A DNA stretch of 64,000 nt from Aliiglaciecola sp. LCG003 (GTDB lineage Bacteria; Pseudomonadota; Gammaproteobacteria; Enterobacterales; Alteromonadaceae): positions 2,294,001 through 2,358,000 of the forward strand of contig NZ_CP128185.1 of NCBI RefSeq assembly GCF_030316135.1, read 5' to 3'. Position 1 is the stretch's first letter, and every line of letters starts with the position of its first letter. Below are positions 8,731-64,000 of the stretch, piece after piece. Position numbers and translations under genes: made by a program. A model generated the notes under the pieces. It worked only from the letters and a program-made list of their open reading frames with translations. It did no database searches and was not told the origin of the DNA.

Positions 8731-9708
8731 TCAAAAGTTAACTGAGCGTTTTATCGCTTCATAGGTTTTAAGGTGATCCGGCATGTATTCTTTTTCATGG
8801 GCCAGTGGATATGGTGTATCTAAGCCACATACACGGGAAATCGGTGACTCTAAATACAAGAAGCATTTTTCTTGTACTGTAGCGGCGATTTCACTGGCAA
8901 AGCCGCCAGTCAACGGTGCTTCATGGTTAATTAATAGACGTCCGGTTTTCATCACAGATTCACATATAGTCTCTGCATCCCACGGCAAAATACTGCGCAA
9001 ATCAATAATTTCACAAGAGATACCATCTTTTTCAGCCATAGCGGCGGCTTGTTCCAGAATTTCCATCTGAGCGCCCCAAGCTAATAAAGTGATATCACTG
9101 CCTTGCTTAGTCACTTCAGCTTTCCCCAGTGGAAGTTCATAATCTTCCTCGGGCACCTCTCCTACGGACGCCCTATACAATCTTTTTGGCTCCATAAACA
9201 ACACTGGATTATCGTCACGAATAGATGCCAATAACAGGCCTTTAGCCTGATAAGGGTTGCGAGGTACCACTATTTTCATACCCGGGGTATGAGCAAAATA
9301 AGCTTCTGGAGATTGAGAGTGATAATGACCACCGGCAATACCACCGCCATAAGGCGTACGAATGGTTAAAGAGCCACAGGTAAATTGGCCACCTGAGCGA
9401 TAACGGAATTTTGCCGTCTCATTTACAATTTGATCAAAGGCAGGAAATATATAATCGGCGAACTGGATCTCTGCGATTGCCGTTGAGCCTTGTGATGCTA
9501 GGCCATTAGCGAAACCAATAATACCTTGTTCCGTTAACGGCGTATTGAAACAACGCCCTTTGCCAAATTTTTCTTGAAGATTACTGGTCGCACGAAAAAC
9601 GCCACCGAAATGTCCTACATCTTCACCAAATACCATGGCTGTTTGGTCTGCTTCCATCACGGTAATTAAGGCGCTGTTGACCGCCTGTAACATATTCATC
9701 TTAATCAT
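8731..9708 (-). CDS. bkdA2: 2-oxoisovalerate dehydrogenase E1 beta subunit
   Basis: The transketolase-like beta chain has NxALxTxME-type N-terminal helices, then [33 protein letters not shown] with the thiamine-contacting Glu, and [18 protein letters not shown]. The start was placed at 9708 ([14 protein letters not shown]). AGGGAG lies about 8 bases before it, and homologues begin there. An extension of 11 codons upstream would overlap E1 alpha further and has no ribosome site. With this start the gene overlaps bkdA1 by 8 bp, typical of coupled translation. 325 residues is the usual length. Confidence 0.93.
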
Positions 9709-10897
9709 TGGACAATCTCCCTGACGTTTTTGGATAGGCATCGGGATACTTTGCCATATGTAGTTTAAGAGAATCTAATTGCTCTTTTAAATGCCAAGGG
9801 GGCGTGTCGTAAACATCTTCAATGATTTGATCGATATGACAAATAGGCACTTTTTCAGACACCTTCAGGGCTTTCAATACGTCTTGTCTAGATTGCTCAA
9901 CAAATTGAGTTATCACTTCGCTATCGAACCAGCCTTTACCAGCTAACCATTTTTCGAAACGTAAAACGGGATCCTTTATTCTCCACTTGGCTTCTTCCTC
10001 TTTAGAACGATAACCAGTAGGATCATCCGAGGTGGAATGGGCAGCTAAGCGATAAGTCATGGCTTCGATCAACACGGGACACTGATGGGCAATGGCCATC
10101 TCACGAGCTTTTTTAGTGGCGGCATACACAGCCAAAACGTCATTTCCATCAACCCGTATGGTTTTCACCCCATAACCAATTCCTCTTGAGGCAATACCAT
10201 CACCGGCAAATTGTTCCTCTGAAGGAGTAGAGATGGCATAGCCATTATTTCGACAGAAGAATATAGCTGGACAATTCAATACTGCGGCCAGATTAAGTCC
10301 CGCATGAAAATCCCCTTCTGATGCCGCACCTTCACCGAAGTAACAAATAGTTACAGCGTCAAGTCCAGCCATTTTTTGCCCATAGGCATAGCCTGAGGCT
10401 TGTGGGATTTGCGTGCCTAGGGGAGATGATATGGTCATGAAATTAAGGGTTTTGTCGCCATAATGTATGGGCATCTGGCGACCTTTATTTGGATCATTTT
10501 GATTACTAAACATCTGATCCATAAATTGCTCTGTAGTGTAACCTCGATAGGCCAAGGCACCCTGCTCACGATACTGAGACATAATCATGTCTTGAGGTTG
10601 CAACGCAGCCGCGCTGCCAACTGTAGATGCTTCTTCGCCAGAACAGGCTAAATAGAAACTAATTCGTCCCTGACGTTGGGCGGCAATCATGCGTTCATCT
10701 AAAACCCGAATGTAGTGCATGGTTTTAAGGATCCGATCGCATGTTTGCTGATCAATATCGGGCAGCTCAGAGGCCTCATGAGCGGTGCCATCTGGTTGCA
10801 AAATTTGCAACATAGGTATATCAATTAGACCGTTTTCAATGATTTCAACATTGTGGGTCAAACCGATATCGGAAAGATGATTTCTGTCTTTCATCAA
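9701..10897 (-). CDS. bkdA1: 2-oxoisovalerate dehydrogenase E1 alpha subunit
   Basis: This first gene of the bkd operon encodes the thiamine-diphosphate-binding alpha chain, 398 residues. The ThDP motif runs from [20 protein letters not shown] to [25 protein letters not shown] and [18 protein letters not shown], the phosphorylation-loop region in mammalian BCKDH, are conserved. It decarboxylates branched-chain 2-oxo acids together with the beta chain encoded next to it. In marine bacteria this supports amino-acid catabolism and supply of branched acyl-CoA primers. The 330-bp region upstream contains a perfect palindrome that may be its operator. Confidence 0.94.
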
Positions 10898-49867: not shown

Positions 49868-50656
49868 CTACTTGGCTTGTAATGGGGTTGCGCCTATGTG
49901 CTCAAACAAGGTATAGAAATTCTTCGTGGTTTGTCGGGCTAATTGTTCCACGCTAATACCTTTTAGTTCGGCGATAAATTCAGCAACTTCAACCACGTAT
50001 CCAGGTTGATTTTGCTTTCCACGGTATGGCACTGGGGCCAACCAAGGTGAATCGGTTTCAATTAGCAATCTGTCCAGCGGTACTGCTTTTACTACTTGTT
50101 GTAACTCTGTAGCTGACTTAAAGGTTACGATCCCTGAAATGGAGATATAGAAACCCATTTCCATCGCCGATTCGGCCATTTCCAATGTTTCGGTAAAGCA
50201 ATGTAACACCCCTTTAATGTCAGGACCTTTATGCTCTTTTAGAAGATTAATGGTGTCTTCTCTGGCGTCACGAGTATGGATGATCAACGGCTTTTTCAGT
50301 TGATTAGCAACTTTAATATGGTCGACAAAAGAGGTCAGTTGAACTTCTTTGGTTTCAGCGCTGTAGAAATAATCTAAGCCAGTTTCCCCAATCGCGACAA
50401 CGCTTTTATCAGAAGCCATATTAAGTAATTCTTCAAAACTACAAGCGTCTTCCTGATGCAGTGGATGGACACCACAGGACATGGATACTGATGGTAATGC
50501 TTGCACTTGTTCCATCATTGAGGGAAAGTCTTTGACCGATACTGCAACACACAGAAAATGCTCTACGCCGCGCAGTTGAGCAAAGGCAATTACTTCTTTC
50601 AATTCTTCAGGGCTTTTGCCTAAACGGTCAAGGTGACAATGAGAATCCACAAACAT
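49868..50656 (-). CDS. TatD-family metal-dependent hydrolase (YcfH type)
   Basis: This 262-residue TIM-barrel DNase/hydrolase has FVDSHCHLDRLG at the start (two metal His), SCGVHPLHQED, AIGETGLDYFYSAE (metal Glu), IHTRDA, VLHCFTET and ETDSPWLAP with the C-terminal Asp. It probably acts on DNA 3' ends or on related substrates. It is the last gene in the conserved order tmk-holB-tatD and starts 18 bp after holB. Confidence 0.92.
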   Translation of the reverse strand: MFVDSHCHLDRLGKSPEELKEVIAFAQLRGVEHFLCVAVSVKDFPSMMEQVQALPSVSMSCGVHPLHQEDACSFEELLNMASDKSVVAIGETGLDYFYSAETKEVQLTSFVDHIKVANQLKKPLIIHTRDAREDTINLLKEHKGPDIKGVLHCFTETLEMAESAMEMGFYISISGIVTFKSATELQQVVKAVPLDRLLIETDSPWLAPVPYRGKQNQPGYVVEVAEFIAELKGISVEQLARQTTKNFYTLFEHIGATPLQAK

Positions 50657-50674
50657 ATTATATTTTAAGCCTAT

Positions 50675-51571
50675 CTATGATGAATATTTACTGTTCAATA
50701 GTGAAAATCGGGTAAGTAGCCCGGCTAATATTAAAATCCGATTTACCCCTGGGTTAATTAACGCTTGGCTGGCATGTATAGCCCTTTCTTCCATTTCGAA
50801 ACCGACACTATCGGTGACATTACGCAGTTGTAGCGTTCTAATTTGATGTTGTAACCATACCACTATTTGCTCTGAGTCTGATTGCCACTTTTCTGACAAT
50901 TCTATTGCACTGGCAGCGCCTGCCTGAAGCGCATTAAGCCCTTGAATGAAATCCTCGTAAGTGACGCCACTATCTTTTTCTAACTCATCCAAAACACGCA
51001 GCGGCGCATTGCTATACAAACGAACAAATTGCTCATCTACCCCTGCATGACCTTGTTCGGCAAGCCAATCGATACAAGCTTGTGTGTCTGGACCCACTAA
51101 AGTGACTTTTTCACAGCGACTTTTTATGGTCGCCAGCAAACGATCAGGTTTAGCTGTAAGTAATAATATAAAAGTATTATTGGTTGGTTCTTCAAGTGTT
51201 TTAAGCAATGCATTTGCCGCAGACTCTGTCATAGTGTCTGCTTTTTCAATCAGCAACACTTTATTGCCTGACAACTGCGCGGTGCCCGTTAGCTTTTTAA
51301 TTGCATCCCGAATCAAATCAACGCCAATTTGTTTTTCTGACACAATTCTATGCATATCTGGATGGGATTGAGCGGCATAAAGCATACAAGATTGGCATTG
51401 ACCGCAGGCCTGTTCACCGCCTTTTTTACACAATATAAACTGACTCAGTTGTTCACCAAAAGCTTTTTTACCAATGCCAACTAACCCTTGCACCAACAAT
51501 GCATGATGCAAAGAATTATTGGTTAATCTGTCAATTAGTTGAGTGAGCCGCTGGCTTAACCAAGGATACAT
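50675..51571 (-). CDS. holB: DNA polymerase III delta' subunit
   Basis: This clamp-loader subunit of 298 residues has HALLVQGLVGIGKKAFGEQL, a P-loop-like stretch, a zinc site CKKGGEQACGQCQSCML, and the SRC motif in LLATIKSRCEKVTL. KVLLIEKADTMTESAANALL is the Walker B region with no catalytic Glu, as usual for delta'. It lies 2 bp behind tmk. Confidence 0.93.
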   Translation of the reverse strand: MYPWLSQRLTQLIDRLTNNSLHHALLVQGLVGIGKKAFGEQLSQFILCKKGGEQACGQCQSCMLYAAQSHPDMHRIVSEKQIGVDLIRDAIKKLTGTAQLSGNKVLLIEKADTMTESAANALLKTLEEPTNNTFILLLTAKPDRLLATIKSRCEKVTLVGPDTQACIDWLAEQGHAGVDEQFVRLYSNAPLRVLDELEKDSGVTYEDFIQGLNALQAGAASAIELSEKWQSDSEQIVVWLQHQIRTLQLRNVTDSVGFEMEERAIHASQALINPGVNRILILAGLLTRFSLLNSKYSS

Positions 51572-51573
51572 GA

Positions 51574-52194
51574 TCAGGCGCCCATAAACGTAGCTAATGA
51601 TTGGCGTATATCGTCATGAACTTTATCAATATGCTGCATGGTATTGATGGTTACTATACTCTGGTTATTGGCGGCAAGTTGTAAATAGCGATCTCGGGTG
51701 CGTTCAAAAAAATCGATCCCCGCTAATTCAATACGATCTAGCTCTCCCCTGCCTTTTGCACGCTTTAAACCTTCTTGCGGCTCAACATCCAAATAAAGCG
51801 TGAAGTCCGGGCTAAAACCGTTCAAAGCCAAATCTCTTAAAATGGTCATTTTTTGTTGCGAAACCCCTCGACCTCCCCCTTGATAAGCCTGAGATGAAAG
51901 ATCATGGCGATCTCCAATAACCCAATTGCCTTTCGCTAAATTTGGTTTTATCACATTTGCCAGCAATTGCGACCGTGCCGCGTACATTAATAATAGTTCA
52001 GCTTCTATGGTCACTTCTTCTTGCCAATCGTGTTTTACACACTCACGAATCGACTCTGCCATGGGTGTACCACCTGGCTCTCTGGTACACACCACGGTTT
52101 TGCCGTAATGCTCTAATACTCTTTTAACCGTATCAATCGCACTACTTTTACCAGCCCCAAATATCCTTTTTTTTTCATATGTAAACAACATCAT
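51574..52194 (-). pseudogene. tmk: Thymidylate kinase gene lacking its 5' end
   Basis: From GAGKSSAIDTVKRVLEHYG onwards the protein is normal Tmk (TREPGGTPMAESIRECVK, VIGDRHDLSSQAYQGGGRG). Before it, the usual first strand and P-loop (V-x-EGLEGAGKSS) is replaced by MMLFTYEKKRIF, so the first P-loop Gly is Arg here. Homology starts at about 52158, next to a 9-base A run on the coding strand. No ribosome site precedes the available ATG at 52194. An active enzyme is unlikely; since tmk is normally essential, another copy should exist. Confidence 0.72.
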
Positions 52195-52683
52195 GGGTGG
52201 GTGGGTGAGTAATGGTTTAAGGAAAAATAACGGCGAATACAATGAATTATATAGAGTTGACACACCTCTTAGAAGTTTAAAAACCGATAATTTCATCAAA
52301 AAAGTGTAAACTAAGATAAAAATCCCCTTAAAACCATAAAGTGTAAACTAAATTCATCCTTTTATTGTGGTTAACAAAAGGCTATTTCGACCTTCAGTGT
52401 AAACCTCAAATCATTAGAGCATTTAATTCTATCATTCAAACAGACAAACCAGAATAGAAATTCTATGATTTGTTTTACTCTACCCTAAAAAATTAACTCT
52501 TTTTTGATAAAAATTTTATACGCTTATTTTTTGAATTTAACAAATTTTCCTTAATAAAATCATACTTGTGTAGTTTCATTGCCTTATTAGATGCATTCAA
52601 CAGTACTCATTGTGTATTATTTACTTTATACAAATCAATAAGTTAACATCAGTTTATAGTTTAAGAAATAATAAGATATAAAC
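52195..52683. other. Non-coding left edge of the accessory island
   Basis: This very AT-rich region without genes lies between the broken tmk end and the first island gene. It starts with a triple GGGTGGGTGGGTGAG-like run and holds repeated GTGTAAAC motifs, which are listed separately. Promoters for the plus-strand gene at 52684 must be near its right end. Confidence 0.6.
52301..52404 (+). repeat. Repeated AAAGTGTAAACTAA motifs
   Basis: AAAGTGTAAACTAA occurs exactly at 52301-52314 and 52338-52351. A related CAGTGTAAACCTCAA follows at about 52395, and ATGTAAACAA stands at 52179. All point the same way. Multiple same-direction copies near an island edge resemble transposase-binding sites in Tn7-like ends, where AAAGTCTTAAACT-type sites occur. 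No tns genes are in this window, so this is a hypothesis; a regulator operator is the alternative. Confidence 0.5.
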
Positions 52684-53331
52684 ATGAAAGAAGACCAATT
52701 GCCGGTAGAATCCTTTGAAGATCTAAATAGGGAATTACCATCTTTTCCAAAGCCGGACTACTCACTACAAATGCCCTCAAATGCGAAGGGCTATGTCGTG
52801 ATTGGCAACTGCCTTGGGTCAAAAGAACAGCTTTTAATAAGTGAAATAATAAATAAACTCCCTCCTTTAAAGAAAGTATTCATTATTTATGAGCAGCCTT
52901 TGCAAGCTACTCCAGAGTTTGTCGCGGAAAATTTCAGTAGGCCAATTGAAAGAATCATTACGCTGGACGAACTCGATCATGTAAAAGGCGGTATTATTAA
53001 CTTGAATTGGACTATGCCTTCTCGCCTCAAAATACTTTTGATGCTTATCAATGCTATGTCTGATGAGTGCGTTCTTTTTTTCGCTACGGGGAGTCATGCA
53101 GAACAAGTAAAAGAACGAGTACTTTTAGTAGATCACCTTTGCGATAAAATAGTCATTTCATTGAACAAGCAAAAGCCAAATTCACTTCGTGCAGGTTGGT
53201 TTCTCTCTCATGATCCAAGTATGGAACGAGCAAATTTCGCCTGTTGGGAGATAGTAAATACAGAAGAAGGCTATCAATACAATTTATCTGTACTGTCATC
53301 TGACCAAATGAAGCAATTGAATGTTGCCTAA
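52684..53331 (+). CDS. Hypothetical protein
   Basis: This 215-residue soluble protein matches no family I recognise. It has an acidic N-terminus, then NAKGYVVIGNCLGSKEQLLI, alternating beta segments (KVFIIYEQPL, CVLFFATGSH, CDKIVISLNK) and a C-terminal RAGWFLSHDPS. The pattern suggests an alpha/beta fold with a nucleotide- or ligand-binding site. It is 45 bp upstream of the tyrosine-phosphatase-like gene and probably co-transcribed with it. AT-rich like the rest of the island. Confidence 0.6.
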   Translation: MKEDQLPVESFEDLNRELPSFPKPDYSLQMPSNAKGYVVIGNCLGSKEQLLISEIINKLPPLKKVFIIYEQPLQATPEFVAENFSRPIERIITLDELDHVKGGIINLNWTMPSRLKILLMLINAMSDECVLFFATGSHAEQVKERVLLVDHLCDKIVISLNKQKPNSLRAGWFLSHDPSMERANFACWEIVNTEEGYQYNLSVLSSDQMKQLNVA

Positions 53332-53376
53332 TCTGTGCAATTATAATTTGATATATTTTGTTAGTAGGTAACGTAA

Positions 53377-53721
53377 ATGAACATATTATTTCTATGCACC
53401 TCTAACGTTAATCGAAGTCGCACTGCTCAAGAGCTTTTCAGCGCAATTGATAAAGCAAGTAAATACCAATCGGCAGGTTTAAGCAAAAAATATGTTGAAA
53501 AAGCTGGTACAACGCTTTGCACTGAAGAGTTGCTAGGCTGGGCTGACAAGATATATATCTTCGAAGATTTTCATTTAGAAAGAATTATTCATTACACTGG
53601 CAAAATACATCTTCATAAAATTTCTAATTTGGATATTGAAGACAAATATCAGTATTTTCAACGAGAATTAGTATTGTTGTTGCTAGAAAAATTACTTAGG
53701 AGTTGCTCAATTAGCATTTAG
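53377..53721 (+). CDS. Small low-molecular-weight tyrosine-phosphatase-like protein
   Basis: This 114-residue protein starts MNILFLCTSNVNRSRTAQEL. The C-x5-R-S loop (Cys 7, Arg 13) is the active site of low-molecular-weight protein tyrosine phosphatases. LLGWADKIYIFEDFH near residue 50 matches a short subfamily of about 110 residues. The general-acid Asp of the long members (DP near the C-terminus) is not clear here; DIEDKYQYF is a candidate. It forms a pair with the unknown gene upstream. Substrate unknown. Confidence 0.72.
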   Translation: MNILFLCTSNVNRSRTAQELFSAIDKASKYQSAGLSKKYVEKAGTTLCTEELLGWADKIYIFEDFHLERIIHYTGKIHLHKISNLDIEDKYQYFQRELVLLLLEKLLRSCSISI

Positions 53722-54020
53722 CCTTTGCAGTCGAGCGTTTCAATCAACTCATCATAATCATGTTGGGATGTATAGCTAATTGATAGTTCATCACGCTTAT
53801 ACTTTATGTCGTGAATAATCATAAAGTCATTATTACGTGTGACTTGCTGATCTATTTTTTTTATAAGGAACTCTGAAACATAAAGCTGATAGTTATCGAA
53901 TACACAGATACTCTTAAAGTGGTGGGAAGGCTGTTTCTGCTGGTACAGTGCATTAAATTCCGACATTAATGACAACAGCCTACGCTTAAGTTTTTGTTCA
54001 TTTAAGTTTTTCACGCTCAT
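53718..54020 (-). CDS. Hypothetical protein
   Basis: This 100-residue protein has a clear ribosome site (AAAGGAG) before the ATG at 54020; an upstream extension in frame was rejected for that reason. The N-terminus is basic and helical (LNEQKLKRRLLSLMSEFNAL), and the rest is beta-rich. It ends 4 bp into the convergent phosphatase-like gene. No family recognised. Confidence 0.55.
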   Translation of the reverse strand: MSVKNLNEQKLKRRLLSLMSEFNALYQQKQPSHHFKSICVFDNYQLYVSEFLIKKIDQQVTRNNDFMIIHDIKYKRDELSISYTSQHDYDELIETLDCKG

Positions 54021-54071
54021 ATTAACTCCTTTAAATGCTATTGTGCTAAACATCCCTGTGATGAGTAGATA

Positions 54072-54887
54072 TTAACCTTTCAAATTCCCATGCTTACTGC
54101 GTACATTTCTAACCGCATCACCTGACGCAAGTTTATCGCTGGGTAAGTCAAGCACAACATTAATAATATCGGCAATAGCGTTATTGCTAAAACGAAAGTT
54201 TGTTGGCAAACCATTCAATTCGTCAAACTTATCATCAAAAGCAATTACAAAATCTTTAAAGTCAGACTGTCGCCCATTGATAACATGATCAGGAAACTGG
54301 CAATGTCTTGGACTAGGCTGTGTTTCTTCAAAGTTTGCAACAGCAGATATTAACTCTGACCTACTAGGCCAATATTTAAGGTCATATTGATATGTTAACG
54401 ATTTCAACTTTTCTGAAACGTGTGTCTTATACAGATAGTTACCTTCGCTAGCCTGTTCAATCAAGTCGTCTATAAATTGATACTCAGGCTTTGAAAAACC
54501 TGATGTTTCATACTGCTCTGATTGCCGTTGTAGCTTTTCAGCAAGCTTTAATGCTAATTCAACAATTTCATCTTTCAATGCTTTAAGTTCTTTGAATTCC
54601 TCTCTGGCTTTAATCACATCTTCTTTTCGGAAGTCAAAGCTACCCCAAATATGCTCCAATGTTAGCCATATATATGCATTATCGGGAGGGCAACCTTCAT
54701 ACATGTCCGAGTAGCCAAAAGCTTCTACTAGTTCTCGAAATGGAAGCCGCAGCTCATCGGCTCGTTCAATCATTCTTTCCATTACAGGCCAATATGACAT
54801 CCATATTTGTTTTTCTTTGTGATCGTCAAGCTCTCTTTTAATAAATGCTTTACAAAAATTCACAGGGTTGTCTTTAGGGAGAGACAT
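54072..54887 (-). CDS. Hypothetical protein
   Basis: This 271-residue soluble, mostly helical protein has a Trp-rich region near residues 30-80 (QIWMSYWPVMERMIERADEL, IWLTLEHIWGSFDFRKED) and a helical middle (IVELALKLAEKLQRQSEQYE). I recognise no domain. It precedes the small 100-residue gene by 51 bp on the same strand, so the two may form a pair. Confidence 0.55.
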   Translation of the reverse strand: MSLPKDNPVNFCKAFIKRELDDHKEKQIWMSYWPVMERMIERADELRLPFRELVEAFGYSDMYEGCPPDNAYIWLTLEHIWGSFDFRKEDVIKAREEFKELKALKDEIVELALKLAEKLQRQSEQYETSGFSKPEYQFIDDLIEQASEGNYLYKTHVSEKLKSLTYQYDLKYWPSRSELISAVANFEETQPSPRHCQFPDHVINGRQSDFKDFVIAFDDKFDELNGLPTNFRFSNNAIADIINVVLDLPSDKLASGDAVRNVRSKHGNLKG

Positions 54888-55128
54888 GCTAAATTTCCTT
54901 ACAATTAAAGTTTTAATAAGCTTATCTTGCTATAAAAACTTTGTCCGTCTCTGAAGACAAAATTTTTAAGCTACTTGAGATCGGTTAGTACTTTACCTTA
55001 GTAATACAAGGCAAAGGCTTAATCCAAATTAGGTTCAGAAATATGCCATTTGGTGCAAGCAAGATAATAAAAATGTACTTACAAATAAATTAGTAGGAAT
55101 TACGTCCATTAAGAATATGAATCGAAAG

Positions 55129-56160
55129 CTAACTTTTCATATGTTTAATTAATTTTTCAGGAATGAGGTAGATATTCTGCTTAGCTCTTGTAAATGCAAC
55201 ATACAGTTTATTTTTAGTCTGAGGTTTAAGCTCTCTAAGATTGCCATTCTGAAAGTGCTTTAATGTATTTGGATTCAAAATAATGCAAATATTTTCGAAA
55301 CAATCTAGCCCTTTAGTAGCTCCCCAGTTTTCTGTATACCCTTTGTACTTTCTACTGTCTTGGTAAAAAAGTTTGGCTGTATCTGGGCAATTCATCATTT
55401 CCGTAGCTTGATTCTTACATTCTATAAACTCAATATTGGTCTGGTCACTTCGATGAGAGTCAATTTGTATAGATAAATTTTCACTTACAAAATCACACAC
55501 TATTGGACTACAACGGTGACTCCTAGAGAGTAATTCTTCATCGACTACATAACCAACTTTTGTAAATTTATCTTTGTATTTGTCGTAGCAATCATGAAGT
55601 GACTTATTTACATTTCCATCTCTAGACGTATCAAATGTATGCTGATAAAAGTCTCCCACAAATAACTGGTCGATATTTGCTGGAAAAATGCGTAATAAAA
55701 AGTTGAAATCGTGTCCTGCAAAATCTTGAACCTCATCAATACAAATGCAGTTAAAATACTTTTCTATACGCTGAACGACTTCATCAATAATGCCCACTTG
55801 TTCAATTAATTTTGCTATTCGATTGGAGTACAACCTATTATGGCTATCGATATAAAACCTACTATCATTTCGTTTCATTTTTAAGGTATTAAATGGAGGG
55901 ACATGCCAATTAATGCCTTTAGTCTTAAGTTTGTGACCATATAGAGGTCTAAAACAAAATGAGTACAAGAATTGAAAGTATGAGTACACTTTAATTCCCG
56001 ATGGAATTTTACCAAACTTTTGCATTATCCTATGCTTTAGGTTCGATAAGTTATTATCCGTATAAGTTAATATTAAAGTTTTAGACTCAATAGTTAACCC
56101 ATTTATTATGTGACTTGTTTTACCTGAGCCTGCTACAGCAAAAACTACTCGTTTATCCAT
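55129..56160 (-). CDS. Compact UvrD/Rep-like helicase (GajB-like)
   Basis: This 343-residue superfamily 1 protein has motif I VVFAVAGSGKTSHIINGL at residue 5, motif Ia LILTYTDNNL, motif II CICIDEVQDF near 139, motif III FVGDFYQHTFD, motif IV-like LLSRSHRC, and motif VI KNKLYVAFTRAKQNIYLI near 310. The Q motif and much of the 1B/2B domains are missing, so it is shorter than GajB (about 500 residues). It overlaps the OLD-type gene by 16 bp. Pairing of an OLD nuclease with a UvrD protein is the Gabija arrangement. Confidence 0.82.
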   Translation of the reverse strand: MDKRVVFAVAGSGKTSHIINGLTIESKTLILTYTDNNLSNLKHRIMQKFGKIPSGIKVYSYFQFLYSFCFRPLYGHKLKTKGINWHVPPFNTLKMKRNDSRFYIDSHNRLYSNRIAKLIEQVGIIDEVVQRIEKYFNCICIDEVQDFAGHDFNFLLRIFPANIDQLFVGDFYQHTFDTSRDGNVNKSLHDCYDKYKDKFTKVGYVVDEELLSRSHRCSPIVCDFVSENLSIQIDSHRSDQTNIEFIECKNQATEMMNCPDTAKLFYQDSRKYKGYTENWGATKGLDCFENICIILNPNTLKHFQNGNLRELKPQTKNKLYVAFTRAKQNIYLIPEKLIKHMKS

Positions 56161-57710
56161 TGGAAAGCTCTCTTGATATAGTCAGGTGTTTCAATATGAT
56201 CAGCTTTCTTATCTAATAACTCAAATGCACAGTCTGCCTTGTTTTTCAGCATAAATTCTTGCACAGACAAAGCTCTCCGGCCCGCCTGCCAAAGCTCATC
56301 ACAAATCTCTTGATTTAAGGTATATAGGCAAACTTCAAACGTATTATTGGCATTATCATCATCGTAAAAAATACCAATATTATCAGCCCTGTAGTTAACA
56401 TAACCGTCAACACAGTTTGTTTGGTAGTCTCCATCATTGTCACGTATAACAGCAGTTCGTATACCTAAGGTTTTTGCTATGTCTAGATATCTTTTAAAAC
56501 TTGTACCACCAACGGAAATAACATGAATATCATCTGCTTCTAATGTAGAGCCAGATACCGATGAATAAAGTGAGTCCAACAGGATATATTCGGCATCGCC
56601 TTCGACTAATATGACCTTTGCCGACAGTATAAATTCTAAAACATTATTGTCGGGCGCTTTCATGAAGAATTTAGCAGTGTCTTCTGGTAAACCTTTCATG
56701 GTAAGAGGTTCGGCAGAAGAACTATTTAATAGTATTGCGTTGCGTAAATTTAATCTAGTGCTTATTAGGCTATTGTGAGTAGCAATAAAGATTTGTCTAG
56801 CATGTGACTCTGATATCCTGTGAACCAGCTTTTTCATATTTGTATGACTTAGGTGGTTTTCAGGCTCTTCTAACAATAATACGTCTATTGGCTTATCTGC
56901 ATCATGCTCTCTTAATGCAAACTCTGTTTTAATAAAACATTGCCTACCTTTGCCTTTGTTTTCGATAGGGACATCATCTTCAACAATATTCAGATCAGTT
57001 TCCAAATTTGATTTAGAGCCAGTTCTAAGCGAAAACTGATATTCATCAAGTTTGTCATTTATGGTTTTAAGGTTGGTTTCTGTGAAAGCTACTTTTTGTT
57101 GTCTATATTCATTTTTTAGCTTTATTCTCTCTGTTTGCTCAACAAAGTTGTCATATACCGACTTAATATATTCCTTGGTTGCATAATCATTATTTATTTG
57201 AGAGCTATCTAAGGCTAGATGCTTTAAGAATTTTCTATAACCCGAATATGCTTGGCCTGAAAAAGTTGCAAAATTAACAACGTAATATTCGAAAGGAAAG
57301 TTGCTTTCTGCTTGTGCTAAAACCTCTGATATTTCGTGAGTTAACTCTTCATTTGGCTCACATGTTAAAACCAGCCCATCACAAGCAACACCTTCAGAAT
57401 TAACCTTTCCATTTAAATGAGGATTATCTTGATCATTCAAATACAGCTCAATACGCAGAGCGGGAAGATTTTCAATGCTTTTATCTGAAACTAAAAAGTC
57501 ATTGATAACTTTTTTATTAAATAAGTTATCAATGCCAATTGTTTCTATTTTAGATTTACTGCCACTTAGTACAAGCTCAATAGCGGAGAGTATGCTACTT
57601 TTCCCTGCCTCATTGTCACCAATCAATAAATTTACTTCTTCAGTAAATTGAACTTCAAAATTTAAAAATTTTTTAAAGTTAAACAGCTTAATTCTTTCGA
57701 TGAATTTCAT
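56145..57710 (-). CDS. OLD-family ATPase with TOPRIM nuclease domain (GajA-like)
   Basis: This 521-residue protein starts with an ABC-type ATPase: Walker A LLIGDNEAGKSSILSAIELV near residue 30, Walker B VLLLEEPENHLSHTN near 280, and H-loop FIATHNSLIST. A C-terminal TOPRIM follows with ILVEGDAEYILLDSL near 370 and AVIRDNDGDYQ, the metal-binding acidic residues. This is the class 2 OLD layout. Start 57710 has AGGGAAG upstream. Followed by a UvrD-like helicase, as in Gabija, which nicks DNA when nucleotide levels fall. Confidence 0.85.
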   Translation of the reverse strand: MKFIERIKLFNFKKFLNFEVQFTEEVNLLIGDNEAGKSSILSAIELVLSGSKSKIETIGIDNLFNKKVINDFLVSDKSIENLPALRIELYLNDQDNPHLNGKVNSEGVACDGLVLTCEPNEELTHEISEVLAQAESNFPFEYYVVNFATFSGQAYSGYRKFLKHLALDSSQINNDYATKEYIKSVYDNFVEQTERIKLKNEYRQQKVAFTETNLKTINDKLDEYQFSLRTGSKSNLETDLNIVEDDVPIENKGKGRQCFIKTEFALREHDADKPIDVLLLEEPENHLSHTNMKKLVHRISESHARQIFIATHNSLISTRLNLRNAILLNSSSAEPLTMKGLPEDTAKFFMKAPDNNVLEFILSAKVILVEGDAEYILLDSLYSSVSGSTLEADDIHVISVGGTSFKRYLDIAKTLGIRTAVIRDNDGDYQTNCVDGYVNYRADNIGIFYDDDNANNTFEVCLYTLNQEICDELWQAGRRALSVQEFMLKNKADCAFELLDKKADHIETPDYIKRAFQWINE

Positions 57711-57751
57711 AACTTCCCTATACCTATTTATTCCATGCAAGTTGCATATAT

Positions 57752-58195
57752 TTATCCCAGCGCTACCATCTTAGTTATCGCTATTAGAGCAATCAATGAC
57801 AAGTAGAACCCCCATACTGAAAAAGATTTACATGCCTCTATTTGCAACTTATTAATATCGCCAGAAGGATTTACTGAAAATAGGTCAGCCTCTTTAAGCT
57901 TTTTTTTATGCACTTTTGAAATAAATTCGTTGTACGAATTTCTAAACGCTTTTTCTAAAGCTAAGTAGTAAGCATCCAATGCACCAAATACAAAGGTAGG
58001 GAGTAATGCTATCCATGCATATTCTGGCTTTCCTTTATCAGCTACAATTACTAACACTGCTGACACTAGAGTAACGCACCAAGCCTTACAACTGCCACTA
58101 TTGGCAGACATTCTTTGAATCACATTTTGTATAATATTTAGATGAGCCTGAATTGATACTGATTCTGGTTCTATGTTGATATATTCATCAGGCAT
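57752..58195 (-). CDS. Small three-helix membrane protein linked to TIR genes
   Basis: This 147-residue protein has membrane segments at about 38-53, 59-80 and 126-146. The conserved-looking middle is ALDAYYLALEKAFRNSYNEF, and a basic loop (VHKKKLKEADL) separates helices 2 and 3. It looks like an SLATT-type or similar effector that could form a membrane pore, but no firm family is claimed. It starts 3 bp after the second TIR-like gene, so the two are translated together. Likely the killing or membrane-damaging part of the module. Confidence 0.7.
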   Translation of the reverse strand: MPDEYINIEPESVSIQAHLNIIQNVIQRMSANSGSCKAWCVTLVSAVLVIVADKGKPEYAWIALLPTFVFGALDAYYLALEKAFRNSYNEFISKVHKKKLKEADLFSVNPSGDINKLQIEACKSFSVWGFYLSLIALIAITKMVALG

Positions 58196-58198
58196 GTA

Positions 58199-58684
58199 TT
58201 AATTCCTTTTATTCGCAATAGCTGAATTTATCCATCCACTAATATTGGCTGCAATATCAGCGTATGCAGTGATAGGACTTGGATCATAACAAGGAATTAC
58301 AGAAGATAATCGACTTCCATCGTTGAAAGTAAAATTGTCAAAAGGATTAGCCCCCTTCCTCGATGTACCAGTTCTTGGACATCTGAGATTGTGAATATAA
58401 ATACCTAGTAATGCTTTGCCGTCCGCCCAAGCTTTTTTGATTTCATACTCAACCCAAGGGCGTGTAGATGTATCGGAACCTATCAGAACAATGACACAGC
58501 GTTTGTATTTCATGTTATTGTCAATCCAAGTTTTGACTGCACTGTCACCCGCTCTTTTTAATCGCTCCCATTCATTAGGAGTGGTTGGCGAGTTCCCTTC
58601 AATGGAACCTATATTCCTAACTTGTTGAACGCGCATTACGTCATTATTAAAGTGAAAACTGTAGAATACTGGTATTTTCGCCAT
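58199..58684 (-). CDS. TIR-like protein (ThsB / DUF1863 type)
   Basis: This 161-residue protein opens with KIPVFYSFHFNNDVMRVQQV, the first strand of the MTH538/ThsB TIR-like family. It has CVIVLIGSDTSTRPWVEYEI, in which the Trp-x2-x-Glu carries the predicted catalytic Glu, and ADGKALLGIYIHNLRCP. ThsB proteins make a cyclic ADP-ribose-type signal from NAD when phage is sensed. No ThsA (Sir2- or Macro-type) effector is nearby; the membrane protein downstream may take its place. Confidence 0.8.
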   Translation of the reverse strand: MAKIPVFYSFHFNNDVMRVQQVRNIGSIEGNSPTTPNEWERLKRAGDSAVKTWIDNNMKYKRCVIVLIGSDTSTRPWVEYEIKKAWADGKALLGIYIHNLRCPRTGTSRKGANPFDNFTFNDGSRLSSVIPCYDPSPITAYADIAANISGWINSAIANKRN

Positions 58685-58696
58685 ATTAATTGCCCT

Positions 58697-59224
58697 TTAA
58701 ATATATTTTATCCATTTCCCTGAGGCAGTACCTGCTTCAAAGACTCCAATAATGTCTTTGCCTGTAAGATTATGTTTACCTTCATCTAAGCGTTTATATA
58801 ACTGAAGGTACTCATTACCATACCAAGTGCCGTTATCTTCCATTGTTGGAACAATTATTATGTTTTCATAACCCTTTAACTGATCAGCAACTCCAATCTC
58901 CCACGGACACCAACGAGAACGCGTTGAGTTGTTAGTTGCTAAAAATAAAAATAAATCACTTTCGTTAATTTTATTTTTTATTTGATCTGCCGTAGCATTA
59001 TTCGGTTCGCTGGGCATAGTTGAATCTTCCCAGTCTATATACAGATCTAAGCCCTGTTCCTTAAGAAAAATTTGAAGTCCTTTTGCTAATTCTTGATCAA
59101 GATGACTATGACATAAAAACGCAGTTTTTAACTTCTTGTCTGAAGCTTCGTTAAACGATTTTGCAATAGCAACACTACCTGACCGCTTGGCTGCCTGTTT
59201 AAGCTCTCTAATTTTTATTGTCAT
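58697..59224 (-). CDS. TIR-domain protein
   Basis: This 175-residue protein has a TIR domain from about residue 30: KTAFLCHSHLDQELAKGLQI, QGLDLYIDWEDSTMP, DLFLFLATNNSTRSRWCPWE, with the catalytic Glu in the WCPWEIG motif. It should be an NAD-degrading or NAD-cyclising enzyme. The N-terminus (about 25 residues) is a short basic helix. It is the first TIR gene after hsdR (26-bp gap) and precedes the second TIR-like gene by 12 bp. Confidence 0.83.
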   Translation of the reverse strand: MTIKIRELKQAAKRSGSVAIAKSFNEASDKKLKTAFLCHSHLDQELAKGLQIFLKEQGLDLYIDWEDSTMPSEPNNATADQIKNKINESDLFLFLATNNSTRSRWCPWEIGVADQLKGYENIIIVPTMEDNGTWYGNEYLQLYKRLDEGKHNLTGKDIIGVFEAGTASGKWIKYI

Positions 59225-59250
59225 CGTTTTTGCATCCTTTCAATACGAGC

Positions 59251-62200
59251 CTAAGCCATCACCTCTGCCTGTCTTAATATCGCCTCAACAGCTTCGGCTT
59301 GTTGATCAGGCGGATATCCTGTGCGCTTAAGAATTTTTTTAATATTTCTACGCATTTTTGAGCGAAGGTTAGGACGCTTTTCCCAGTCTGGTTGCGAACT
59401 ACTTCTAATTTCTTGAACAAGTGCTTTAGCAATTAAAACGATATCCTCGTCTTTCATTGCTTCCTTAGCCGTTTCATTCTCAAGAAGTGCGTCATAGAAA
59501 GCTAATTCTTCTTTCGTTAGCCCAATTTCTTCACCACGATCTGCTGATTCCCTAAGCTCTTTAGCCAACCTAATCAGTTCTTCAATTACTTGGCTTGTAT
59601 GCACTGCCTTATTTTTATATTTAGCAACAGAAGCTGACAACATATCCATAAACGATCTTTGACTAGCTGCATTCTTAGCAGTTCTGACTCTTATCTCGTC
59701 TTCAATAAGCTTTTGCAGCATTTCAACGGCTAAATTCTTATGCTCCATCTTCTTAACGTCATCTAAGAATTGATCGTCTAAAATGCTTATTTCAGGCTTG
59801 TTAAGCCCAGCAGATTTAAATACATCAACAACTTCCCCCGTCACAATAGCTTTAGACACAACCTGTCTCAAGGCGTGTTGGACGGTATCTGCATCAAGCT
59901 TTTTCTTAGCCATCGTTGATTTTTTTATTGCTGCTCTAACCGTTTCAAAAAAAGCGACTTCTTCTTTGTAATCATTCGCTTCATCATGTGTACTGCACAA
60001 GCTAAAAGCCTTGCTTAAAGCCAAGGCAGCGCGGTCAAAACGCTTTTTACCATCATTCCCCTTGAGGACATGGTTCATGGCTCCAGCTAATAACTTGAGC
60101 GTACTTTTCTCGAAATCGGAATAGTCAAAACCATGCATAATGCTACGGCATACGTCTAGTTTCGTTTTAAATACTGACATAGCTTCGTCAATATCTACTG
60201 TTGGTCTGCCTTTACCATCATTAGCCGTATAATTTGCTAATGCATTTTTAAGGTCTTCTGCAATACCAAGATAATCAACAATTAGACCGCCTTCTTTATC
60301 CCTAAATACTCGATTAACACGAGCAATAGATTGCATGAGGTTGTGGCCTTTAAGTGGCTTGTCGATATACATAGTGTTAAGACAAGGTGCATCAAACCCA
60401 GTTAGCCACATGTCACAAACAATGATTAGCTTCAGATCATTATCAGGATCACGTACTCGCTCTGCAATTTTGCGCTGAATAGGCTTTTTATGAATATGCT
60501 TTTGGAAGGACTCTTTATCAGACGAGCTTCCCGTCATAATCACTTTCATTGAACCTTTAAGTGGATCGTCATCATGCCAATCTGGACGAAGTTTTCTTAT
60601 GGCATCATAAACTTTCACACAAGCTTCACGACTGATGCAGACCATCATTCCTTTACTGAGCATAACTTGCTCACGCTTTTCAAAATGCTGGATAAAGTCT
60701 GCGGCTAATGTCTCAATTCGTTTATCTTCAGTAACTAGGGCTTCGAGCGCGGCATTTTTTGACTTCAATCGACTTTGATCAAATTCATCATATCCATCTG
60801 TTGCATCATAAACTTCATCTTCGATATCTTCTTCATTCACTAGTGAACTAAGATCTATCTTAATTAAGCGACTTTCGTAATATAACGGCTTGGTTGCTTC
60901 ATCTTTTTGTGCTTGTTCAATGTCGTAAATAGATACGTAAGAGCCAAATACATGCTGAGTATCTTTATCTTCAGTTTCTATTGGCGTACCAGTGAAACCT
61001 ATGAAACCTGCGTTTGGCAATGCAGTACGAAGATGATGGGCATAGCCGTATTTCATTTGACCTGTTTTCTGGTCAACTCTTGCTTTCATACCATATTGAG
61101 AGCGATGCGCTTCATCAGCACCGACAATAATATTATGACGATTGGATAAAGGCTTAAATTCAGTTTCACCTTTTTCTGGCTGGAATTTCTGCATCGTAGC
61201 GAAGAAAATACCGCCTGCTGGCTTATTTTGTAAATGTAACTCAATATCGGTTCTATTGTTGCACTGAATAGGCTTTTGCCTTAACAAATCTTCACTTGCT
61301 AAAAAAGTCTCAAAAAGCTGATCATCAAGGTCGTTTCTATCAGTAACGATAACAATGGTCGGATTTTCTAGTTCAGGCGTAGCCATTAGCTTCGCACTGT
61401 AATAAACCATTGATAGTGACTTACCTGAGCCTTGTGTATGCCAGAAAACACCACAGCGTTGATCGCCATCTGGCCTTGTTGCCTTGACCGTATTTACTAC
61501 TGCATCTCTAACACCGTGGAACTGGTGATAGCCAGCTTGTTTTTTAATGAATGAGTCTTTGCTTGCTTCATAGGTAACGAAGAATTGAAGGTAATCAAGC
61601 AGTAAATCTTTATCAAAGAAACCACGGATCATTACTTCAAGCTCTAGCATAGTTTCTGTATCGTCTTTTGAGCCATCAATAGTACGCCAGTGCATGAATC
61701 GTTCACGATCTGCCGTTAAAGAGCCTATACGAGCCACTGTGCCATCAGAGATGATCATCGCCTCGTTACATACAAAGAGGTCTTTAATCGTGTTCTTGTA
61801 CGTTTGAAGCTGGTTATACGCTGCCCAAACATCAGCATCTTCGTCTTTTGGATTCTTAAGCTCGATTACTGATATCGGTAAACCGTTAATAAAAACAACA
61901 ATATCTGGTCTGCGATTATCTTTTTCACCGTGGGTTACACCATCAACAGAATACTGCTGAACAGCTAACCAGTCGTTGTTGTGTTTGCTTTTGAAGTCAA
62001 TTAAATAAACGCGATCACCAACAAGTTCTCCTTTGTCATTATGATATTCAACCTGAATACCTTCGATTAATTGACGATGAAATGTTTTGTTAGCAACAGC
62101 AGTATTGGCGTGATACTGCCTTAACTTCGTTATGGCATCCTCACGAGCCGACTCAGGTATCCCTGAGTTAATGTCTTCTATTGCTTTTCTTAGTCTGCCT

Positions 62201-62337
62201 AATAGCATGACTTCACTAAGTGAATCTCGCTCTGGTGATGCACTCGTTGGGTCTATTTTAGAACCATGAAGAGTCTGATAGCCGATGCTGTCAAACCACT
62301 CCATACATTCTGTTTCTAATTGATCTTCGTTTACCAT
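59251..62337 (-). CDS. hsdR: Type I restriction endonuclease subunit R
   Basis: This 1028-residue protein has an N-terminal nuclease domain with RRPDIVVFINGLPISVIELK, the Asp and Glu-x-Lys of the PD-(D/E)xK site. The helicase follows: Walker A HTQGSGKSLSMVYYSA near residue 305, DEAHRSQYG motif II, GFTGTPIE motif III, and QSIARVNRVFRD motif VI. The C-terminal part binds the methylase-specificity core. It lies 36 bp after hsdS. The enzyme cuts DNA that lacks the host methylation pattern. Confidence 0.94.
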   Translation of the reverse strand: MVNEDQLETECMEWFDSIGYQTLHGSKIDPTSASPERDSLSEVMLLGRLRKAIEDINSGIPESAREDAITKLRQYHANTAVANKTFHRQLIEGIQVEYHNDKGELVGDRVYLIDFKSKHNNDWLAVQQYSVDGVTHGEKDNRRPDIVVFINGLPISVIELKNPKDEDADVWAAYNQLQTYKNTIKDLFVCNEAMIISDGTVARIGSLTADRERFMHWRTIDGSKDDTETMLELEVMIRGFFDKDLLLDYLQFFVTYEASKDSFIKKQAGYHQFHGVRDAVVNTVKATRPDGDQRCGVFWHTQGSGKSLSMVYYSAKLMATPELENPTIVIVTDRNDLDDQLFETFLASEDLLRQKPIQCNNRTDIELHLQNKPAGGIFFATMQKFQPEKGETEFKPLSNRHNIIVGADEAHRSQYGMKARVDQKTGQMKYGYAHHLRTALPNAGFIGFTGTPIETEDKDTQHVFGSYVSIYDIEQAQKDEATKPLYYESRLIKIDLSSLVNEEDIEDEVYDATDGYDEFDQSRLKSKNAALEALVTEDKRIETLAADFIQHFEKREQVMLSKGMMVCISREACVKVYDAIRKLRPDWHDDDPLKGSMKVIMTGSSSDKESFQKHIHKKPIQRKIAERVRDPDNDLKLIIVCDMWLTGFDAPCLNTMYIDKPLKGHNLMQSIARVNRVFRDKEGGLIVDYLGIAEDLKNALANYTANDGKGRPTVDIDEAMSVFKTKLDVCRSIMHGFDYSDFEKSTLKLLAGAMNHVLKGNDGKKRFDRAALALSKAFSLCSTHDEANDYKEEVAFFETVRAAIKKSTMAKKKLDADTVQHALRQVVSKAIVTGEVVDVFKSAGLNKPEISILDDQFLDDVKKMEHKNLAVEMLQKLIEDEIRVRTAKNAASQRSFMDMLSASVAKYKNKAVHTSQVIEELIRLAKELRESADRGEEIGLTKEELAFYDALLENETAKEAMKDEDIVLIAKALVQEIRSSSQPDWEKRPNLRSKMRRNIKKILKRTGYPPDQQAEAVEAILRQAEVMA

Positions 62338-62373
62338 TTTTACACCTTATTATTCTTTTTATTTCCCTGTGCA

Positions 62374-63696
62374 TTAACTCGCTTCTTCGAGTAGTTCCTC
62401 TGCTTTTTGGATTGCAATCTTGCCTGAGATTAAACGGGGTAGTAGTTTATCTCGGATTTTAGCTAGTGTATTGACCTGTTTTTGGTTAATCAAAACTTTT
62501 TCAAAGATTGGCTCTATTAAATCATTAAAATTCTTAAGCAAATCGAATGAAGGTATAACCATCTTTAAATTGGAAAAACTTGTTTTATTCATATTGTCAA
62601 AAACAGTCCCATCGTGACTAAAAGCGCTTCGTCCAGACATGGACTTTAATGATAAAAAATAAAAATTAGAAAATTTATCATATGGCAGCAAACTATTGAT
62701 TTGCTGATTAGTTTGGCAATTTTCGTGTGCCAAAATTACCAATCCGGGGGTTGCTATACAACTAACCAGTATTGAGCCTTTAGGGAGTGTTTTTTTAGGT
62801 TGTGATAGCTCTCCCTTTTTGGATAGGTATTTTGAAGACTTCGTTACTAAAGATTTACCATGCATATCAGGTATTGTTATGAAAGGAATTTCATTGCCAT
62901 AATATTCTTCATTTTTAGTACTTGGGGTTTTACCTGTAATTATGTCACCAATTTGCTCCAATTTCTTAACCTCCCACTCCTTCGGAATCATCCCCAATTC
63001 CGACTCATCAAACTCATTTGGGAACAGAGCTTGAATTTCAGGTGAAAGCCCATCAAAAGGTACGCCTTCTGCGTTAGCTTTAACAGGATCGAAATCAACA
63101 AACCATGATTTAAAAATGCGTTGGGCGATCTTTTCCAATGTTGCGTTCATTTGACTATTGTTACGAATGCCCAAATCAATATTTCGTAAAATATCTGCAA
63201 TAGCCACACTTTCTTTAAAGGTAACCTTAGGGCAAGGTACTGAGCAAATAGTAACTGCATTTATATTCGCTTGATTCGCACTTCCTGTAGAATTCGCAAC
63301 TAAATAATCGATGCTCGACTTTTGCTGCAATAGATAAAATATAAAGTCAGGATCTACTTTGTCATCCTTTATCTGTATGCGTCCAACACGCTGATTGATG
63401 TATGCGGCTTTATCATCTTGATAAATCTTGGCTACTCTTCCTACCAAAGATTGAGGCGCATTAGGTCCAGAACCTGTCATAGAGATTAATATGTCACCAG
63501 CATTCGTTTTAAATCTTTCAAGTCCATTGATAACTGAATCTGAAACAAATCCGCAATCAGTGAAGTCTATATGCCCAAATCTAACATTTTTTATCTTTAA
63601 GACTGGATTTCCATCTTTAGAGAAGTCCTTACTTTTAAAGGCATAGCCACCTTGAACATTAATATATTCACCGAGGTTAGTTATTTCATAGCCCAT
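62374..63696 (-). CDS. hsdS: Type I restriction-modification specificity subunit S
   Basis: This 440-residue protein has two target-recognition domains, the first at about 5-150 (GDILISMTGSGPNAPQSLVG) and the second at about 235-400 (IGDIITGKTPSTKNEEYYGN). Two conserved helices follow each: ATLEKIAQRIFKSWFVDFDP and LAKIRDKLLPRLISG. The gene overlaps hsdM by 11 bp. The recognised DNA sequence cannot be read from the protein. Confidence 0.92.
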   Translation of the reverse strand: MGYEITNLGEYINVQGGYAFKSKDFSKDGNPVLKIKNVRFGHIDFTDCGFVSDSVINGLERFKTNAGDILISMTGSGPNAPQSLVGRVAKIYQDDKAAYINQRVGRIQIKDDKVDPDFIFYLLQQKSSIDYLVANSTGSANQANINAVTICSVPCPKVTFKESVAIADILRNIDLGIRNNSQMNATLEKIAQRIFKSWFVDFDPVKANAEGVPFDGLSPEIQALFPNEFDESELGMIPKEWEVKKLEQIGDIITGKTPSTKNEEYYGNEIPFITIPDMHGKSLVTKSSKYLSKKGELSQPKKTLPKGSILVSCIATPGLVILAHENCQTNQQINSLLPYDKFSNFYFLSLKSMSGRSAFSHDGTVFDNMNKTSFSNLKMVIPSFDLLKNFNDLIEPIFEKVLINQKQVNTLAKIRDKLLPRLISGKIAIQKAEELLEEAS

Positions 63697-64000
63697 AACC
63701 TACCTCACGCAAAGATGATTTGATTTTTTCTTCTAATTTTGAACCTTTGTCCATCTGAGTAGATAACAAGTTTGTTAGCATCATCATCTCATCTTCAAAT
63801 GCTTCCTCTTCTTCCATTAAGCCTTCAGAATCAACATATCTTCCACATGAAAGGACATAGTCAGCATTTCTAATATCTTCAGTCGTAGCTGACTTACAAA
63901 AGCCTTCAATGTTCTCGTATGCTCCATTTGATAGATTAGAATTTGCCCAATTATGGTAGGTACTTGCTATTTTTTCTATATCTTTTTCATTAAAATGCCA
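63686..64000 (-). CDS. hsdM: Type I DNA methyltransferase subunit M, C-terminal part
   Basis: The gene runs off the right edge; the last 104 codons are present. The sequence DIEKIASTYHNW, then EGFCKSATTEDIRNADYVLS and CGRYVDSEG, is the conserved end of HsdM, followed by a helix-rich tail ending VGYGL. It shares 11 bp with hsdS. The catalytic NPPF and SAM motifs lie outside the window. Confidence 0.9.
   Translation of the reverse strand, partial: WHFNEKDIEKIASTYHNWANSNLSNGAYENIEGFCKSATTEDIRNADYVLSCGRYVDSEGLMEEEEAFEDEMMMLTNLLSTQMDKGSKLEEKIKSSLREVGYGL

Follow-up and report, generated by a model that had tools for sequence, protein, structure and literature searches.

Relation to described defence systems

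The closest described counterparts of the TIR/membrane genes analysed here belong to Thoeris, whose SIR2-SLOG ThsA effectors contain SLOG and respond to cyclic ADP-ribose isomers and whose TM-macro type has a membrane effector (PMC11204291), and to PDC-M50, a candidate TIR/membrane family already catalogued in PADLOC-DB. PDC names derive from guilt-by-embedding (PMC12988326, itself citing a 2024 preprint), and the name PDC-M50 was found in none of the open-licence PMC papers searched. Here, we analysed a 64,000-nucleotide stretch of Aliiglaciecola sp. LCG003 (NZ_CP128185.1, positions 2,294,001 to 2,358,000; hereafter the window), the right end of which carries a minus-strand run of eight genes in the order hsdM-hsdS-hsdR-TIR-TIR(DUF1863)-membrane protein-gajA-gajB. 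We consider it likely that these genes represent three defence modules placed head to tail on a mobile island, namely a type I restriction-modification (RM) system, a Thoeris-like TIR/TIR/membrane module and a Gabija pair, rather than a single eight-gene system. The apparent eight-gene system would thus resolve into three modules, in which the small membrane protein, here called M50A, is the part worth testing.

The M50B and M50A genes of the window are adjacent, with a 3-bp gap, and match both PDC-M50 models (the two-gene rule was taken from the model names PDC-M50A and PDC-M50B), with M50B scoring better against ThsB. Unlike PDC-M50, the window has a second, classical TIR gene before the pair, and the trio follows hsdR. 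As in Thoeris, both TIR proteins match ThsB models and several TIR genes stand with one effector; unlike Thoeris, the candidate effector is a bare membrane protein of 147 amino acids (aa), and the eight genes carry no SIR2-SLOG or macro domain. Membership in Thoeris proper was rejected, as no ThsA (SIR2-SLOG or TM-macro) was present among the window genes scanned with Pfam and PADLOC, and the TIR/TIR/membrane genes are best read as a module similar to Thoeris whose effector is a bare membrane protein. The locus also resembles type I RM loci that host extra defence genes, but its module lies after hsdR and not between the subunits.

Gene content and organization of the cluster

The eight genes are listed from hsdM to gajB; L numbers denote the loci compared.

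63686..64000, minus strand: 3' part of hsdM, type I RM methyltransferase (whole gene L011:12686-14257, 523 aa; Pfam N6_Mtase 2e-99, HsdM_N)
62374..63696, minus strand: hsdS, specificity subunit, 440 aa (Pfam Methylase_S 4.8e-34; PADLOC)
59251..62337, minus strand: hsdR, type I restriction subunit, 1028 aa (Pfam HSDR_N, SWI2_SNF2, T1RH-like_C; PADLOC REase_I 1054.8 bits)
58697..59224, minus strand: classical TIR protein, 175 aa (Pfam TIR_2 2.3e-12; PADLOC ThsB 1.4e-61; PDB 8btn_B 1.7e-14)
58199..58684, minus strand: DUF1863/ThsB-type TIR protein (PDC-M50B), 161 aa (Pfam ThsB_TIR 2.5e-24; PADLOC ThsB 3e-70, PDC-M50B 1e-59)
57752..58195, minus strand: M50A, small membrane protein (PDC-M50A) and proposed effector, 147 aa (PADLOC PDC-M50A 2.1e-31)
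56145..57740, minus strand: GajA-type OLD ATPase/TOPRIM nuclease, 531 aa from TTG or 521 aa from the ATG at 57710 (PADLOC GajA 7.5e-120; Pfam OLD-like_TOPRIM)
55129..56160, minus strand: short GajB-type UvrD helicase, 343 aa, overlapping gajA by 16 bp (PADLOC GajB 4.6e-53)

A preliminary description of this DNA had reported eight minus-strand genes in this order, with gaps of 3-41 bp or overlaps, and all open reading frames (ORFs) were recovered at or near the positions it gave, with hsdM extending beyond the window end. Its assignment of every part to a recognised defence family also agrees with Pfam and PADLOC, the TIR/membrane part corresponding to the PADLOC candidate PDC-M50. According to both resources, hsdM, hsdS and hsdR are all present with the family domains of a type I RM system, and an OLD-type GajA is paired with a UvrD-type GajB, as in Gabija.

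Intergenic distances from hsdM to gajB are -11, 36, 26, 12, 3, 11 (41 from the gajA ATG) and -16 bp, and the next gene on the same strand beyond gajB is 241 bp away (window 54072-54887, 271 aa; no Pfam or PADLOC match). In a promoter and terminator scan over L011:3000-14800, 13 terminator-like sites were found against 7.0 expected, none of them in the gaps between the eight genes. Promoter-like matches in the same scan numbered 31, against 40.6 expected from shuffled sequences, with none seen on the minus strand just upstream of hsdM. A single transcript for the eight genes is plausible. No RNA feature reached the Rfam gathering level in window 50000-64000.

A conserved block that ends at M50A

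The gene order hsdM-hsdS-hsdR-TIR-M50B-M50A was also found in Pseudoalteromonas sp. HM-SA03 (L002), a genome that lacks the Gabija pair of the window. Amino-acid identities between the two islands are 98% for HsdR, 94% for TIR, 97% for M50B, 100% for M50A, 83% for HsdM and 35% for HsdS. From hsdR to the membrane gene, the DNA is 93.5% identical over 4,702 bp, and homology breaks off at the M50A stop codon. Past M50A, HM-SA03 continues with two small genes, a transposase-like gene that has helix-turn-helix domains and a match to an integrase core under the cut-off, and, 2.7 kb further on, a Gabija pair (L002:13184-16287) of a different subfamily (PDLC04168, PDLC04173), whose GajA is 22.7% identical to that of the window over the aligned part.

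These data bear on whether all eight genes form one cooperating operon, with restriction, TIR signalling and Gabija layered under one promoter. The 11-41 bp between the membrane gene and gajA contain no terminator-like site, and this tight spacing, which counts against a strict division into modules, leaves co-transcription of all eight genes possible. Further, a Gabija-type pair lies downstream of the RM-TIR block in both islands, so that the combination recurs with non-orthologous genes, a sign of some preference that argues against fully independent placement. However, the break at the M50A stop codon and the distant, differently classified Gabija pair of HM-SA03 do not favour a single eight-gene system, and the window GajA and GajB used as queries matched none of the other M50A loci searched, a set without the short loci L029-L032 and L073-L080. 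We consider a single cooperating operon improbable. Of the unit proposed in the preliminary description, the tight spacing compatible with one transcript and the coupling of the TIR membrane module to type I RM were retained, whereas inclusion of the Gabija pair was not supported; the RM-TIR-TIR-membrane part of the gene order recurs in HM-SA03, and the full order of the window was seen in no other locus examined.

Judged by its sequence relatives, the Gabija pair is most likely a separate unit that became an added neighbour of the RM/TIR block, and may have been placed there by a separate insertion, as the end of homology with HM-SA03 at the M50A stop codon suggests. Both genes have GajA and GajB as their best PADLOC matches over almost the full length. 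The window GajB is short for Gabija and has relatives on many plasmids, with tblastn identifying it in 1,812 of the 72,556 plasmid records searched, nowhere at 60% identity or more (1,762 span at least 80% of GajB). GajA and GajB are paired in all three plasmid records opened, in which no RM or TIR gene is annotated beside them (the gene table is incomplete), and the 16-bp overlap is also present in plasmid loci L067 and L068.

Comparison of the shared block with HM-SA03 indicates purifying selection on hsdR, TIR, M50B and M50A. The ratio of non-synonymous to synonymous divergence (dN/dS), obtained like dS by a simple counting method, is 0.024 for HsdR, 0.057 for TIR, 0.073 for M50B and 0 for M50A, the last with 6 synonymous and 0 non-synonymous differences. 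Along the block, dS drops from 0.40-0.47 (hsdR, TIR) through 0.18 to 0.065 (M50A), and therefore the part near M50A seems to have recombined more recently. Such a drop, together with the swapping of modules and the divergence of hsdS (35% identity against 83-98% for its neighbours), would be expected of plain defence-island clustering, in which neighbours beyond the TIR/membrane trio are functionally unlinked. We regard this explanation as somewhat unlikely, as the gaps of 26, 12 and 3 bp in hsdR-TIR-TIR-membrane are kept while its genes are under purifying selection, and diverged loci again have such genes placed in RM operons (see below). Both islands also encode a 78-aa protein divergent from hsdM (L011:14366-14602, plus strand; L002:2569-2805, minus strand), which has no Pfam match, looks ribbon-helix-helix-like by eye and could be a small regulator of the RM operon.

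M50A and its TIR neighbours

M50A has three hydrophobic segments (about residues 33-56, 60-80 and 121-147), and AlphaFold2 predicted long helices (predicted local distance difference test 85.3; predicted template modelling score 0.73). Relatives were found on 9 genome contigs and in 127 plasmid records, 10 of which were opened. In the genome samples, they were present in 6 of 394 at order, 5 of 398 at phylum and 11 of 369 at class level (limits of 1e-15, 1e-12 and 1e-12; the samples partly overlap and include the window's own genome). Hosts cover Pseudomonadota, Cyanobacteriota, Actinomycetota, Bacillota, Campylobacterota and one archaeal assembly. A viral origin was considered and rejected: none of the 30 pattern matches in viral contigs was confirmed, and 3 of 50,697 phage records had a 32%-identical partial match.

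Our census of M50A comprised 39 loci, the window's own included, 13 of them shorter than 6 kb; L002, being identical to the window, was kept outside alignment A1. A TIR-type gene lies at most two genes from M50A in 34 of the 39 loci, compared with 13 TIR-type ORFs among 300 located more than four genes away in the same loci. Twenty-eight of these loci were identified by our own profiles, and L004, L008, L029, L050, L052 and L078 by tblastn, Pfam or annotation (in L008 and L050, the ORF picker had overlooked the M50A frame in the profile count). Since M50A neighbours were among the sequences used to build the TIR profile, Pfam served as an independent check where it was run; it gave no match for the neighbour in L048 and only one, below the cut-off, in L054. 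The partners vary and include DUF1863 proteins, plain TIR proteins, a 389-aa TIR protein and an LRR-Roc-COR-TIR protein. The last (L053:7227-9929, 900 aa) overlaps its M50A-type membrane gene (9919-10341) by 11 bp. In L009, the M50B next to M50A matches in two frames (9485-9948) and looks broken in that contig.

Several observations weigh against reading M50A as a TIR-controlled effector. In five of the 39 loci, the checks made revealed no TIR gene (L030, L032, L046, L047 and L044, the last truncated by the contig end), and among the 34 positive loci, L074 and L079 encode it on the strand opposite to M50A. Several M50B-M50A pairs stand without the second TIR gene (L005, L043, L045). M50A itself has no Pfam domain and no sequence match in PDB, and the comparison of its predicted fold with PDB returned 276 matches with E-values up to 10, the best being 0.77 and none below 0.001, so that no element by which it might read a TIR signal was recognised. 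Searches of open-licence PMC papers on Thoeris and its effectors gave no paper on M50A and no experimental description of the TIR/membrane family.

The TIR pair with other effectors

The classical TIR protein has a WxPWE motif in common with the solved TIR protein that it matches (8btn_B). In PDB, M50B has a close relative in 8wcf_A (E-value 6e-57) and a more distant one in 9b7d_A, named ThsB1 (3e-14). Residue E81 of M50B, within a W-x-x-[YH]-E motif, is invariant in all 14 sequences chosen for alignment A2, the window's included (L009 was left out, its M50B lying in two frames), and we take it to be the catalytic residue.

Relatives of the pair also occur with another candidate effector. Escherichia coli AW1.7, an Enterobacter plasmid and a Klebsiella plasmid carry TIR (63-66% identity) and M50B (72.7-74.5%) ahead of a phospholipase gene and additional TIR genes, and in a Pantoea plasmid, M50B (72%) and the phospholipase stand with a TIR gene that is different and longer; none of the four loci yielded an M50A. 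In both phospholipases tested, from Klebsiella and Pantoea, a SLOG domain (Pfam LD_cluster2, 3.7e-8 and 9.3e-8) lies N-terminal to the patatin. Since SLOG is shared by this partner phospholipase and ThsA effectors, the TIR/M50B pair in the enterobacterial loci probably makes a nucleotide signal, by analogy with Thoeris. Partner swapping on both sides, among TIR sensors and among effectors, is as expected of a sensor/effector pair. The enterobacterial multi-TIR cluster spans L034:8462-14355, L013:8971-15645 and L035:8462-13949; its phospholipase is annotated as CBASS-type, and the copies tested (L035, L036) are SLOG-patatins. In E. coli AW1.7, the cluster adjoins TnsA and TnsD genes.

M50A in type I RM operons

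Five of the 39 loci have type I RM genes beside or around M50A, in three positions. M50A lies after hsdR in the window and L002. It lies between hsdS and hsdR in L050 (hsdM-hsdS-M50A-M50B-hsdR, M50A overlapping hsdS by 4 bp) and in L029/L081 (hsdM-hsdS-DUF4917-reverse transcriptase-ThsB type-M50A-hsdR; L081:1-11295). In L009, it stands before hsdM (M50B-M50A-hsdM-nuclease-hsdS). On the evidence of gene order, RM together with a TIR/membrane module is a recurring combination.

This recurrence raises the question of whether the TIR/membrane module could guard the RM system, staying silent while HsdMSR works and firing once HsdMSR is blocked or altered by an anti-restriction protein of a phage. 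PrrC/EcoprrI follow such a logic over a restriction system, and the three positions of M50A and its TIR partner in or at the end of RM operons would be in line with it. On the other hand, 34 of the 39 loci showed no RM gene with the tblastn queries used, a count from which distant families, or genes past the ends of the 13 loci shorter than 6 kb, may escape. Moreover, in plasmid loci with a related HsdR (47.2-49.7% identity), all four opened have another gene directly before hsdR: a PDDEXK nuclease, a PD-(D/E)XK nuclease after Fic, DUF4268 and SIR2. No TIR gene is annotated in these four stretches, and in L069 no hsdM or hsdS is annotated within 4 kb upstream of hsdR. Given that L081 also holds DUF4917 and reverse-transcriptase genes, the varied extra genes of RM operons fit a general hosting of cargo, and we consider a guard function improbable.

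Proposed mode of action

In our preferred reading of three neighbouring modules, type I RM would cut incoming unmethylated DNA. Infection may activate the two TIR proteins, the classical one and the DUF1863/ThsB-type one, to convert NAD+ into a signal; this signal, or the TIR assembly itself, would most likely open or cluster the 147-aa three-helix M50A, which might then damage the inner membrane and halt the infected cell. The Gabija nuclease-helicase, arriving behind by a separate insertion, would act on phage DNA.

A wider proposal, in which we place little confidence, is that M50A could be a minimal, widespread TIR-controlled membrane effector, gated directly by TIR products or assemblies without a nucleotide-binding domain. 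It would work with interchangeable TIR sensors (DUF1863, plain TIR, LRR-Roc-COR-TIR), the DUF1863/TIR pair in turn having interchangeable effectors (M50A, SLOG-patatin phospholipase), and in type I RM operons its role would be that of a guard, triggered by a block of restriction. TIR genes and M50A occur together across several phyla, and among solved structures M50A had neither a sequence nor a fold relative that we could find. Should TIR proteins prove to gate it directly, M50A would represent a simpler form of TIR immunity than the SIR2-SLOG and TM-macro effectors of Thoeris. Its recurrence in type I RM operons would make the old question of how cell suicide backs restriction directly testable.

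A mobile island splitting tmk

The genome is 4.41 Mb in a single contig, and the cluster is carried as cargo by a 25.1-kb island, which interrupts the thymidylate kinase gene tmk and supplies a tmk of its own.

51574..52158, minus strand: native tmk remnant at the left island end, cut in the Walker-A codons, as judged against one intact tmk from the genus (border within a few bases)
52159..64000, no strand assigned: part of the island inside the window, continuing to genome position 2371269

The first codons of the native tmk were located at genome position 2371269, 25,112 bp from the remnant, plus or minus a few bases. GC content is 0.39-0.49 over window 1-52000 against 0.34-0.40 beyond. Just inside the far end of the island (L012:8544-9330), a complete-looking thymidylate kinase gene (L012:8544-9194; Pfam Thymidylate_kin 7e-48) is approximately 40% identical to the native type. 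Seven of eight other genomes of the genus have one tmk match each (61-78% identity), and the eighth, which is 59% complete, has none. HM-SA03 gave a single tmk match, which shares 61% identity with the island type and 42% with the native type. Further, the HM-SA03 Gabija pair is followed by genes matching the left island end of the window and then by an HrpB-type helicase gene (HrpB_C 6e-44); therefore, the HM-SA03 island sits at another genome site. A published island of Pseudomonas putida KT2440 likewise splits tmk and supplies a replacement kinase (PMC10653934).

No tRNA was found in the window or at the island ends. Beside the island tmk are four adjacent recombination-type genes (L012:2193-8539; 432, 325, 677 and 679 aa), two of which have Phage_integrase matches and two no Pfam match. 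GInt/SE-type islands are described with three or four recombination genes at one end, tyrosine recombinases included (PMC10214605, PMC5385486), and the four genes here recall GInt, SE or Tn554 elements. Near both island ends, AGTGTAAAC-type repeats occur in opposite orientation.

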